The position numbers and the translations under genes were made by a program. A DNA stretch of 24,903 nucleotides from a virus: positions 1-24,903 of IMG/VR virus record IMGVR_UViG_3300037502_003241. One strand, 5' to 3'. Positions 5,971-14,494 of this stretch are shown here, piece after piece; position 1 is the stretch's first letter, and each line of letters begins with the position of its first letter. The notes below the pieces were generated by a model, which saw nothing but the letters and a program-made list of their open reading frames with translations, ran no database searches and was not told where the DNA came from.

Positions 5971-6984
5971 TTAGTCCGCGGTGCTGGCGATCTTGCCGTG
6001 CACGAGGGGGTTATCGACTTGGAGCGCGGCGATCGTGTCGACGATGCCACGGGGGCCACCGCCTTCGTCGTCGAGCGGCATGTAGCGCGGACGGCGGTTG
6101 TAGCGGATCGAGATGCCATCCATGTCCAGGATGTAACCACGACGCAGCTGGGAAGCGGCGACTTGATCCTTGGCAAGAAATAGACTCGGTGTAAGAGCCA
6201 AGTCTCCAAAATCTCCAACGAACAGATCGACCTTCGCGTAGTAGCTGAGGTCTTCGCTGTTTTGGTTGAAGAGGCGGACGGTGGCGCCGGTGTTGGTGCT
6301 GCCGAACTGGACTTGCTGGAAGCCGGTGAAACGGCGCTTGAGCGTGGGTCCGCACAGGAGCGTGTAGCTCTTGTTCTTGCCGCACTGCTCATACAACGAC
6401 TGGAGCAACGCCTGGATGGTGGTGTCCGTGATGCTGTTGGTCGCGGTCGTGCTGATCGAGGCAGCGGGCGTGCGGTAGGCGGCCGGAACTGCGGTGGCCG
6501 TATCGCTCTGCGCACTGTTGCTGATCCACGAGCCGAGGCCGCGGGTCTTATACGGCGTGGCGCCGGATTGTTCGGTGCTGTCTTGGTCGGAGCAGAACAC
6601 GGACTCGAGGTCACGAGCGAGCTCCTGCAAGCTCTTGGTGACGGCGCGAGCCATCTCACGTTTGCGTCCGATGCCTGCCACGTCAGTGACGCTTTCGGCG
6701 AGATCATCCACCTTCGGAAGTCTCCACATTTTTTGGATGCGGCCGTAGAGGCGGGCGCGGTTGGCAGCCTGGTTAGCGAACGTGGTAGCGTCCTGGTTGG
6801 AGAGCACGCCGGTGAGGACGGGCTCGTTCATTGCGTCGACCAGCCAGCTGAAGAGCGGGTTGGTCGGTTCTTTGGATTTTTTGGCCATCGAGAGGAGCGG
6901 GGTGCTCTTCTGGTCGGCCACGGCGATGAGGTCCGCGAGATCCTCGCGGGCGCCCACCTGATTTGTGATGAGTAGCTCAGCCAC
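5971..6984 (-). CDS. Major capsid protein, DUF5309/SU10-like
   Basis: This 337-residue protein should form the HK97-fold head shell. Family-like features are the N-terminal region with PLLSMAKK and PLFSWLVDAMNEP (about residues 28-53), the helical stretch GRKREMARAVTKSLQELARD (about 106-125; the spine helix in this family), and the late strand region ILDMDGISIRYNRRPRYMPL. It begins at GTG 6984, supported by the strong Shine-Dalgarno AAGGAGGAA (6991-6999), 8 bases from the start. There is no separate N-terminal delta domain. The neighbours are a scaffold-like gene upstream and the portal downstream. The family call is from sequence pattern memory. Confidence 0.82.
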   Translation of the reverse strand: MAELLITNQVGAREDLADLIAVADQKSTPLLSMAKKSKEPTNPLFSWLVDAMNEPVLTGVLSNQDATTFANQAANRARLYGRIQKMWRLPKVDDLAESVTDVAGIGRKREMARAVTKSLQELARDLESVFCSDQDSTEQSGATPYKTRGLGSWISNSAQSDTATAVPAAYRTPAASISTTATNSITDTTIQALLQSLYEQCGKNKSYTLLCGPTLKRRFTGFQQVQFGSTNTGATVRLFNQNSEDLSYYAKVDLFVGDFGDLALTPSLFLAKDQVAASQLRRGYILDMDGISIRYNRRPRYMPLDDEGGGPRGIVDTIAALQVDNPLVHGKIASTAD

Positions 6985-11331: not shown

Positions 11332-13032
11332 TCAGTAGCTGCCCAATGGCTCGAAGCTGAGGTCGCTGTTGTCGTGGTAGCTGGCGCCGCTCAAGACGAG
11401 ATACCGGAGGACGTCGATGGCGTCTTTGGTTCCGGAGGTTTTCGGGCCGGTGCCGGTGTATTGGCTCAAAGCAAAGATGACGTTTTTGCAGTTGCTGGTG
11501 ACGTAGAGGGTCGGCTGGTTGAGGGCGTCGATGGGTTTGCTGTCGTCGTATGACAGCCAGTTAATAATCATGGTGACGCCTTCGGCGATGCCGTCCCCCG
11601 GGGCAGCGGTGAAGTGCAAGCCGATTTCGGCGCATTCTTCGATCAAGGTGGTGGCGCCTTCCCTGGCGACGGTGGCGGCGTTGCCGTAACGGGAGTCCAT
11701 GATGCGCTCGAAGATGACGAAGTCTTCGGCGTCGCGGGCGTGGCGGGCTTCGATGTTTTCGATCTCGAGTTTGTAGTGGCTCAGGCCGAAGCCGAAGCTG
11801 CGCTGGGCGTCGCCGGCAATGCCGTCGGGGTTGTTGCCGCCGGGGACAGCCCAGGGCCCGGGGAGGCCGACGCCGGGGACTTCGCGGACTTGGCTCGGCC
11901 ATTCGTCATAGATGAAGCAGCGGCCGGCGGCGTCGAATCGCGCCCAGATCATGAACCAGTTGCGGCCGGAGCACGGGTCGACGACCTGGTAGTTGACGCC
12001 GCGCTTGGGCACGCGGTCGGGCGGGATGACGTGGATGTTGGTGTTGAAGTTGACGAACATGTTGGCGGCCTTTTTCGTGGGGACGCCGTAGGCTCGCATG
12101 AGGATGCGGTCTTTGGGGGACTTGATGAGTTCGGTCTTCATCGCGTCGTAGTTGCCGAAGGGGTTGTCGGCGGTGTGGAAGTAGACGACGCGGGCGGTGG
12201 ACTTGGCGCATTGCTGGACGCGGGGGACGCGGACGGGGCGGTCTTTGTTGTCGAGGACGAGTTCGGCTTCCGTATCCTCGAGGGTGATGGCGCCGGCGAG
12301 GTATTCGGCGACGGTGTCGGTGTAGCCGAGGATGGGCGTGAAGCCGACGGCGAGTTCGCCGTTGCGGGTGATGAGGCGGAAGCGGAGGGCTTCGAGCCAC
12401 TCGGGAGTTACAAGTTCGTCTGCCCAGCAGTAGTTCAGCTCGGCGCCTTCGATGGCTTTGACGTCCATCGAGTAAAATTTGAACCAGCACTGGCTGCCAT
12501 TCGGCAGGACGAATGAGTTTTCGGTAAATCCGCCTTTCTGTGAGTAGGTGATATTTGTCACGACGCCTTTGCGCATTTTGCCGGAGGCAGCGGGTTTCCA
12601 TTCGGCGGGCAGGTATTCCCAAATGTAGGGTTGCTGGTTTTGGATGGAGGATGATTCGGTGGATTGCAGGCACCAGACTTTGGCGCCGGGGGTGTCGACC
12701 AGGACTTGCACGGCGCGGCGGGCGAGGTAGCGGGATTTCGAGGCGCGGTTGCCGCCGAGGATGAGGAGCTCGGTGACGCCTTTGGGGAATTGCTCGCGGA
12801 GTTCGGCGAATTGGCGGTCGGCCAGGGCCCAGATGGGCAGGACGGCGCCGTAGCGGTAGGGGTCTTCTTGCTCGAGGCGGATGCGCTCCTCGAAGAGTTT
12901 GTGGAATTCGACGAGCTGATCCGGCGTCATGCGGCGGACGCCGTCGTCGAAGCGGACGAGGACGTTGCCGGCGGGATCGCGGCCGAGGATTTCGGGGGCG
13001 CGATGGATCGGATGGTCGTCCGTAAAGATCAT
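11332..13032 (-). CDS. terL: Terminase large subunit
   Basis: This 566-residue packaging motor drives DNA into the prohead with ATP and cuts genome ends. The ATPase half has a Walker A-like loop GGNRASKS (residues 93-100), a motif-II Walker B at YCWADEL (201-207, DE pair 205-206), and a C-motif-like region near GFTPILGYTD. The nuclease half has acidic positions in YQVVDPCSGRNWF (D352), FIYDEW (near 374-379) and KDAIDVLRYLV (near 540), matching the RNase H-like nuclease. The length is normal. ATG 13032 overlaps the TGA of the methyltransferase gene (ATGA), so the two are translated together. Confidence 0.92.
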   Translation of the reverse strand: MIFTDDHPIHRAPEILGRDPAGNVLVRFDDGVRRMTPDQLVEFHKLFEERIRLEQEDPYRYGAVLPIWALADRQFAELREQFPKGVTELLILGGNRASKSRYLARRAVQVLVDTPGAKVWCLQSTESSSIQNQQPYIWEYLPAEWKPAASGKMRKGVVTNITYSQKGGFTENSFVLPNGSQCWFKFYSMDVKAIEGAELNYCWADELVTPEWLEALRFRLITRNGELAVGFTPILGYTDTVAEYLAGAITLEDTEAELVLDNKDRPVRVPRVQQCAKSTARVVYFHTADNPFGNYDAMKTELIKSPKDRILMRAYGVPTKKAANMFVNFNTNIHVIPPDRVPKRGVNYQVVDPCSGRNWFMIWARFDAAGRCFIYDEWPSQVREVPGVGLPGPWAVPGGNNPDGIAGDAQRSFGFGLSHYKLEIENIEARHARDAEDFVIFERIMDSRYGNAATVAREGATTLIEECAEIGLHFTAAPGDGIAEGVTMIINWLSYDDSKPIDALNQPTLYVTSNCKNVIFALSQYTGTGPKTSGTKDAIDVLRYLVLSGASYHDNSDLSFEPLGSY

Positions 13033-14276
13033 GTCAGCTCTGCAAACAAAACTCGAAAAGCTCGTTCGGCGGTGGCGGGGACGACTCCGTTGCCGAGGAG
13101 TCGGAGTTCGTCGGTTCGATTGTCACTGGTGACGCACAGCTGGGCATAACCCACCCCACCGGCAGGCCCATGAGGGTCTCCACCCAGCGGGGATTGAGTT
13201 TGCCGTTGGCTTGCGTCTGCAAGTTCTCCCCGCCGGTCTTGTTCGGTGCTTGTCCCGCACCCGTCGAGCAATTCGCATGCGGGCTGGCCCATTGCTCCTT
13301 CATTGCTTGAGCTGGCAAGGCTGGTCTGCCACTGCTGTCCCGTTGGTTCGGTCCCGAATGTTGCGGATCGGACGCTTGGGGTGTCGCCCATTGCATTGCT
13401 TGCGAGCCCAGCTTGGGCCACTTCTTGCCCTGCTGATCCACATGATAGCCGAGGTGGTTCTTGGCTTCTGGTGTTGCCCACGATTGGCTCTTGGCTTGGC
13501 TGCTCAGTGTCCCGTGGCAATGCAGTCCCCTGTCCGCATTCCTCGCCGCAAAGTTCGGATCGCTGTCCGACTCGTTGGCTTTTGGCGTCAACCACAACTC
13601 TTGGCGGTTCCCATTCGCATTGCTGTTGGCCCGGTCTGCTTGGCCAAACATCGCTGCGTCTTGTGTGATGACCGCGCACAGGTAATGCTTGCCCAGCATG
13701 TGCCGGTGAGATTTGGAACCAACCGGCCCAACGTCCTTGTATTCGCTGGCTCTGATTGTGGGCCAAGATGAAGACCCGCTTGCGCTGGTGGACTGCGCCG
13801 ACTTCAGACGCCGAGAATATGCCCCACGTCGTTCGGTAACCCAGTCCTGCCAGGTCTTCGATGACGTCGGGCAGCCCCAACGAGAGATGTCCTTCGACGT
13901 TTTCAAAGAAACAGAGACTTGGTCGCATTGCAGCAATTCCGGCTGATATGTATGGCCAGAGGTGTCGGGGGTCGTCGGCACCGAGACGCTTGCCGGCGGC
14001 GCTGAATGGCTGGCACGGGTAGCCGCCACTGAGGATGTCCACGCAGTCGTGAAAGTCGGCCCATGGGAAGGATTTAAGATCCGTCCAGAGAGGTGCTGCG
14101 TCCAAGAGTCCCGCTTCCATTTTTGCAACCAGGTTCGCGCAGGCGAAGGCTTCGATCTCAGCAAAAGCGATTGTGCGCAGAGCTGGGATTGCTCGTTTAA
14201 GTCCGAGATCAATGCCGCCGTATCCGGCACATAGGGAGACGTGTGTAAGGGTCGAGGGAGTATCCACATTGGTCAT
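13029..14276 (-). CDS. C5 cytosine DNA methyltransferase
   Basis: This 415-residue enzyme transfers methyl from S-adenosylmethionine to cytosine C5. Visible motifs: I, SLCAGYGGIDLGL (about 14-26); IV, SGGYPCQPFSAAGK with catalytic Cys 88; VI, FENVEG (E125); VIII, QRKRVFILAH (about 164-173); and the C-terminal LLGNGVVPATAERAFRVL (motifs IX-X). Between VIII and IX lies a long, low-structure region (about 175-385) with repeats like VVDAKSQRVGQR, IVGNTRSQE and LADASQRQT, as in phage members of the family. This region is also open in another frame with its own family-like motifs (see 13034-14269). I choose ATG 14276 for its ATGA overlap; ATG 14285 is an alternative. No partner restriction enzyme is present, so it probably protects phage DNA. 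Confidence 0.88.
   Translation of the reverse strand: MTNVDTPSTLTHVSLCAGYGGIDLGLKRAIPALRTIAFAEIEAFACANLVAKMEAGLLDAAPLWTDLKSFPWADFHDCVDILSGGYPCQPFSAAGKRLGADDPRHLWPYISAGIAAMRPSLCFFENVEGHLSLGLPDVIEDLAGLGYRTTWGIFSASEVGAVHQRKRVFILAHNQSQRIQGRWAGWFQISPAHAGQALPVRGHHTRRSDVWPSRPGQQQCEWEPPRVVVDAKSQRVGQRSELCGEECGQGTALPRDTEQPSQEPIVGNTRSQEPPRLSCGSAGQEVAQAGLASNAMGDTPSVRSATFGTEPTGQQWQTSLASSSNEGAMGQPACELLDGCGTSTEQDRRGELADASQRQTQSPLGGDPHGPAGGVGYAQLCVTSDNRTDELRLLGNGVVPATAERAFRVLFAELT
13034..14269 (-). other. Overlapping second frame in the methyltransferase gene (WxTPxAxE motifs)
   Basis: The alternative frame on the same strand is open for 411 codons. Its first 160 codons look like noise, but from about 13768 to 13148 it contains five spaced motifs (WPTIRASE, WLTPKANE, WATPEAKN, WATPQASD, WASPHANC) and then GKLNPRWVETLMGLPVGWV. 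From memory, this WPTPxAxD series ending in LNPxWVExLMGxPxGW is the signature of separate phage proteins encoded next to dcm-like genes. I therefore think this stretch may be a real overlapping gene. Expression could start at an internal ATG (codon 191 or 207) or by frameshift near 13775. Not proven. Confidence 0.4.
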
Positions 14277-14494
14277 TGTTTCCATTCTTTCGGGAGGTCG
14301 AGGTCGTAGCCGTTGCCGTCTTGGGGGTTGCCGATCAGGCGGATGTCGGGTTGCCAGTAGAAGCGGAAGTGGCCGCCTGGGCAGCGGACGCCGAATTCGC
14401 AGTTATGATCGGGGCCGTAGGTAATCATGACTTTGGCGGTCCCCTCGCCGTGCGGACACATGACGGGCCAAGGCGGGTTGAGTTCGAGGATCAT
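14273..14494 (-). CDS. Small conserved-looking phage protein (MILELNPP family)
   Basis: This 73-residue protein begins MILELNPPWPVMCPHGEGTA and continues with a Trp/Tyr-rich beta pattern (FGVRCPGGHFRFYWQPDIR). Proteins starting with MILELNPPxPV are common in phage genomes, from memory; their function is unknown. The start ATG 14494 directly follows a heptamer array. The TGA overlaps the methyltransferase ATG. Confidence 0.7.
   Translation of the reverse strand: MILELNPPWPVMCPHGEGTAKVMITYGPDHNCEFGVRCPGGHFRFYWQPDIRLIGNPQDGNGYDLDLPKEWKQ

Follow-up and report, generated by a model that had tools for sequence, protein, structure and literature searches.

The methyltransferase locus of this virus evolves as a dual-coding gene: a second frame is kept open across nearly the whole gene in relatives chosen without bias, and purifying selection acts on both frames. 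We read the locus, with a probability of about 85%, as one C5 cytosine methyltransferase that is split into an alpha subunit (motifs I-VIII and X) and a beta subunit (putative recognition modules and motif IX) encoded in overlapping frames. We further consider it likely that the locus belongs to a widespread viral class, in which catalytic and specificity subunits are written in two frames of the same DNA over nearly the whole gene, with modules gained, lost or swapped in the second frame and the first frame absorbing the insertions as a low-complexity linker.

The two reading frames and their motifs

The window, meaning the whole stretch of DNA that was analysed, comprises all 24,903 bases of an IMG/VR virus record. 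A preliminary description of this DNA had proposed two overlapping frames, and both are present where it had put them. The features of the locus are as follows.

13029..14285, minus strand: frame A, C5 cytosine methyltransferase and proposed alpha subunit (418 aa; motifs I-VIII and X, without motif IX)
13034..14269, minus strand: frame B, proposed beta subunit (411 aa, +1 frame within A)
14267..14269, minus strand: start codon of B (ATG TGG ATA CTC CC, read as MWILP), 16 nt inside A
14202..14234, minus strand: alpha motif I (LCAGYGGIDLG), from the alignment
14001..14027, minus strand: alpha motif IV (GGYPCQPFS, with the catalytic Cys); B is weakly constrained there
13890..13904, minus strand: alpha motif VI (ENVEG), from the alignment
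13761..13790, minus strand: alpha motif VIII (HQRKRVFILA), from the alignment
13595..13765, minus strand: beta module 1 (WPTIRASE...)
13593..13646, minus strand: conserved WPSRPGQQQCEWEPPRVV segment of alpha, within the variable region, from the alignment
13481..13594, minus strand: beta module 2 (WLTPKANE...), a type found in 9 proteins
13391..13480, minus strand: beta module 3 (WATPEAKN...), a type found in 7 proteins
13292..13390, minus strand: beta module 4 (WATPQASD...), a type found in 6 proteins
13199..13291, minus strand: beta module 5 (WASPHANC...), a type found in 3 proteins
13151..13198, minus strand: segment assigned to motif IX (LNPRWVETLMGLPVGW) in frame B, B residues 358-373, from its sequence and its conservation in frame B
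13056..13112, minus strand: motif X (DELRLLGNGVVPATAERAF) in frame A (identity 0.92 in A, 0.46 in B)

Frame A has the marks of a C5 methyltransferase, with a PF00145 domain (Pfam; aa 14-183, E 7.5e-32) and motifs I, IV (PCQ), VI (ENV) and VIII all present. It also matches phrog_363 and, with a score under the cut-off, the dcm superfamily of NCBIfam; HaeIII and HhaI are its nearest solved relatives. AF2 predicts most of aa 10-180 and 400-418 of alpha well, and has low confidence over most of 204-398. Frame B has no match in Pfam or NCBIfam, and a Pfam search finds no HNH domain in it; a profile of the whole of B against the PDB found nothing. The database search for frame-B homologues that had been suggested did return phrog_1008 (E 3e-21), together with GenBank coding sequences that lie inside the methyltransferase genes of Paenibacillus phage Shelly and Escherichia phage K1G; the nested gene of Shelly matches phrog_1008 at E 8e-74.

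Eighty viral loci were collected first via frame-B patterns and were excluded from the openness test, as selection on B could bias it. The unbiased set of 79 analysed loci came from a new search that relied solely on a frame-A alignment; a scan of viral contigs with the single frame-A sequence had returned no matches.

The segment LNPRWVETLMGLPVGW is read as motif IX of C5 methyltransferases because of its own sequence and its place ahead of motif X. The preliminary description had motif IX in the enzyme frame, which proved wrong: it is absent from A and located in frame B. Of the 79 loci, 72 have an IX-like pattern in B and none has it in A, while 77 have motif X in A. Because A lacks motif IX and is unconstrained there, we class it as the subunit of a split enzyme and not as a complete single chain. 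The arrangement found at the locus, with I-VIII and X on alpha and motif IX on a second polypeptide, is that of the M.EcoHK31I type.

When viral contigs were scanned with the frame-B motif alone, at least 121 places were found. Among the 121 matches listed, 99 show an uninterrupted A, in the -1 frame, that bears both the catalytic domain and motif X; 10 lie at contig edges and for that reason lack a catalytic hit; and in 5 A stops before motif IX, motif X then lying in B's frame. The bacterial locus L169 likewise has an A that ends ahead of motif IX, and a motif X that follows IX in B's frame. The early-ending-alpha variants are six (L169, L191, L216, L276, L281 and L288). Alpha stops directly after motif VIII in L276 and L288, so that any recognition domain, as well as motifs IX and X, must sit on beta; in L288 an element similar to alpha's WPSRPGQQQCEWEPPRVV segment accompanies motif X there. 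A profile of the six beta ends (IX and X) matched just 4onq and 4onj in the PDB, at E=1. Both are DNA methyltransferases (the plant DRM enzyme), and in each the alignment falls on the protein's own motifs IX and X, which is corroboration, although weak alone.

It is against this distribution that an alternative has to be judged, namely that frame B encodes an unrelated overprinted protein, such as an anti-restriction or regulatory factor, lying by chance in a methyltransferase gene. The lack of a Pfam or NCBIfam match for B would suit such a protein, as would its conserved N-terminal 160 residues without a known domain, and nested unrelated genes do exist in phage methylases (out-of-frame HNH; PMC11855218). 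However, motif IX lies in B and is absent from A, motif X moves to B's frame where A stops early, and at 99 of the 121 listed frame-B-motif matches the -1 frame of the same DNA contains both the catalytic domain and motif X, which makes an unrelated protein unlikely. The earlier suggestion of an overlapping gene is supported, both frames being conserved and under purifying selection and neither of its two refuting outcomes having been observed, but the idea of two protein families sharing one locus is not, since B carries motif IX and modules of what we take to be the same enzyme.

Openness of frame B and selection on the two frames

Because the window is GC-rich with long spurious open frames, openness of a frame is by itself weak evidence; the +2 frame of the DnaB-like gene, for example, contains 1 stop against 2.05 expected and stays open over 476 codons. 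The 1.2-kb openness of the second frame of the methyltransferase gene is nevertheless more than chance predicts: 20,000 synonymous-codon shuffles of A give an expectation of 6.1 stops, and none is seen (P(0)=0.0002). In the same shuffles its +2 frame is normal (10 stops seen, 11.5 expected), and no other gene tested within the window comes near the stop depletion of frame B. Two further frames with few stops, the +1 frame of a capsid-like gene at 5971-6984 (1 stop, P=0.016) and the +2 frame at 2036-2653 (no stop, P=0.034), probably reflect composition.

We also looked for stop codons in frame B of close relatives, as had been proposed. B is open in all 79 A-selected loci save the last 101 nt of A, to which its stops are confined, against 5.7 stops expected per gene. 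The third frame of these loci has 16.5 stops (17.0 expected), and the +1 frame of 55 flanking control genes has 12.4 (12.9 expected) and is open in none of the 55. More distant methyltransferases (L082, L171-L174) have many stops in B. The overlap with B covers a median of 97% of A. In three loci, L019 (stop near A residue 131), L122 and L146, A is broken by a single stop and B is fully open; these may represent sequencing error, a dead alpha or a beta retained alone, and were given no weight in the argument.

Nearly every locus with an intact 5' end has an MWILP-type start of B. Its layout takes several forms: in ATGTGG, B's ATG overlaps A's GTG, and in ATGACATGG, A's ATG lies 5 nt downstream of B's. 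An SD-like sequence precedes B's ATG in 40 of 78 loci, compared with 8 expected.

In a codon alignment of 68 non-redundant loci, identity was determined segment by segment in A, in B and at four-fold sites. In the motif IV region the three values are 0.85, 0.43 and 0.42, respectively; at A residues 367-386, the motif IX region, they are 0.57, 0.86 and 0.98; and at motif X they are 0.92, 0.46 and 0.44. Constraint therefore changes frame along the gene: B is constrained at motif IX, and A at motif X just a few codons further along. The proposed substitution test for both frames was also run, on 33 independent pairs that have no sequence in common and with each substitution classed by what it does in either frame; it revealed purifying selection on B. 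The dNN/dNS of B is 0.39 [0.30-0.50] in motifs I-III, 0.75 [0.56-1.03] in motifs IV-V, 0.34 [0.26-0.44] in motifs VI-VIII, 0.27 [0.20-0.35] in the variable region, 0.06 [0.03-0.10] at motif IX and 0.48 [0.27-0.98] at motif X, whereas the third frame, used as a control, ranges from 1.05 to 3.45 along the gene. The dNN/dSN of A is 0.03-0.38, but exceeds 2 at motif IX. A version of the test with 332 pairs gave the same picture. Tables of pairwise identity compared with flanking genes yielded a modest signal, and it is the segment-wise and substitution-class tests that are decisive.

Selection on B is already measurable in its first segment, ahead of every plausible shift site, and this also bears on the possibility that a single polypeptide is produced by programmed frameshifting from A to B and back to A. 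Such a product would restore the motif order I-VIII (A), IX (B) and X (A), and one locus, L181 (2836-3748), is a rare single-chain form with I-VIII and IX in one frame and X in the -1 frame. Yet two opposite frameshifts would be needed, B has its own conserved ATG, often with an SD-like sequence, and in six loci alpha hits a stop before motif IX and beta carries on; we consider this explanation very improbable. As for frame B being a non-coding by-product of composition and of the conservation of A, the GC-rich window does contain long spurious open frames, such as the +2 frame of the DnaB-like gene, but the absence of internal stops in B, four-fold sites frozen at motif IX, and a dNN/dNS well below 1 in B and above 1 in the control frame contradict this idea and leave it next to no credibility.

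The modules of the proposed beta subunit

Five W-x-[TS]-[PI] units begin at B residues 169, 226, 264, 294 and 327. These are the five W(P/L/A)(T/S)PxAxE motifs of the preliminary description; their number was correct, and the pattern was loose, the first unit being WPTIRASE and two of the five ending in E. The minus-strand DNA that it quoted (..GTGGTTGACGCCAAAAGCCAACGAG..) indeed translates as VVDAKSQR in A and as WLTPKANE in B. The ADAxSQR repeats it had noticed in A are a one-base shift of the same DNA, and as beta-module DNA read one base over they are largely a shadow of the frame-B modules; they fall in the part of alpha for which AF2 has low confidence.

Counted with a loose pattern, the W-x-T-P modules between motifs VIII and IX have a median length of 38 aa and number 2-8 per beta, and module number correlates with beta length (0.84). 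Modules are exchanged between loci. Those with at least 80% identity are common to 79 of 1680 pairs whose backbone identity is below 50%, the extreme case being a module that is 100% identical on a 46% backbone; where backbone identity is below 70%, 259 of 452 shared modules occur at a different ordinal position. We disregarded the largest single-linkage group of modules (type 0), in which unlike modules are lumped together. Exchange of modules is a known behaviour of target-recognition domains, and multispecific phage C5 methyltransferases of the SPR and phi3T type carry tandem recognition modules of ~40 aa between motifs VIII and IX, in their case within a single enzyme frame, whereas the modules of the window belong to a second predicted protein, encoded by an overlapping frame. 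We infer that the W-x-T-P modules would read DNA as target-recognition modules.

Known split enzymes, a possible mechanism and variants

Split C5 methyltransferases are known; what is new here are the nearly coextensive frames and the modular beta. In M.EcoHK31I (YGGCCR), motifs I-VIII and X are on the larger subunit and IX on the smaller, while in M.AquI (CYCGRG) I-VIII are on alpha, and IX and X on beta (PMC3404938). The window resembles M.EcoHK31I in having I-VIII and X on alpha and motif IX on a second polypeptide, but differs in that window-type beta is about as long as alpha, overlapping a median of 97% of it, and has, across the window group, 2-8 exchangeable modules. The division of M.AquI recurs in the six early-ending-alpha variants; unlike M.AquI, the window and most of its relatives keep motif X on alpha, and their genes overlap almost entirely. 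M.EaeI is a two-polypeptide C5 methyltransferase like M.EcoHK31I. The beta gene of M.EcoHK31I, reportedly described by Lee, Kam and Shaw in 1995, is said to lie inside the alpha gene in another frame, and the beta gene of the window is similarly nested. The ShiLan-type out-of-frame HNH of mycobacteriophage methylases is a homing insertion (PMC11855218). Its resemblance to the window lies in a phage methylase gene that contains an alternative frame; unlike that insertion, frame B spans the whole gene and has no HNH match.

Nested betas also occur in cultured phages, as gene 56 of Paenibacillus phage Shelly ('g55 internal gene'), ORF30 of Escherichia phage K1G ('Mte8-like', with motif IX LNPAHSRWLMGYPQEW) and in Lacticaseibacillus phage R23.9, there without a gene annotation. 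The nested genes of phrog_1008, Shelly and K1G are like that of the window in occupying the +1 frame of a C5 methyltransferase, with W-x-T-P modules and motif IX, although the betas of Shelly and K1G start further inside alpha. Their labels are inconsistent (hypothetical protein, Mte8-like or DNA methyltransferase), and none of the open-licence papers in our literature search describes such overlapping-frame split methyltransferases as a class.

If the locus encodes one split enzyme, alpha would provide the SAM-binding and catalytic core (I-VIII) with motif X, and beta a chain of ~38-aa W-x-T-P modules, predicted to serve in recognition, followed by motif IX. Both proteins are predicted to be translated, and as 16 nt separate their start codons in the window, one messenger RNA would yield both subunits. 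Alpha and beta would come together as one enzyme, with the small domain contributed by beta; this domain, formed by motif IX and the modules, would close over the DNA, with SAM and the catalytic cysteine carried by the alpha core and motif X. The number and kind of modules would then set the sites at which viral DNA is methylated, probably as a means of evading host restriction. Some observations run counter to the split reading: AF2 prediction of beta by itself yields no fold that can be used (mean pLDDT 55), beta's N-terminal ~160 residues match no known domain in spite of their conservation, and the predicted recognition domain of M.EcoHK31I has been assigned to the larger subunit and not to beta (PMC3404938).

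Few bacterial viruses have a documented overlap of 400-codon genes in which selection can be measured on both frames, and the reason for the overlap is readable here, as the products look like halves of one enzyme. Because the frame-B family matches nothing in Pfam or NCBIfam, annotations of this group of viral methyltransferases lack what is probably the specificity half, and anyone predicting specificity from the variable region of frame A would be using the wrong frame. Relatives in cultured Escherichia and Paenibacillus phages make the idea directly testable.

Several of the bacterial genomes with relatives belong to Verrucomicrobiota and Planctomycetes, and a host of the window virus among these groups is plausible. 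Some loci show unusual ends. In L299 (Paenibacillus polymyxa plasmid pAP1, locus 1299-2789), two copies of motif IX (LNPTWVECLMGFPLDW and LNPAWVECLMGFPLGW), separated by a stop codon, lie in the methyltransferase's +1 frame. A cysteine-rich segment of the CPCCDDVICWKCGGHYADCPC type is found at the end of A in L072 and L075, where motif X is expected. Variant ends of motif IX, such as LQGVCMGWTSPSCPASVIKNWPKFVSGW, with a recurring insertion after the motif, occur in L126, L148, L024, L051, L093, L094 and L114.
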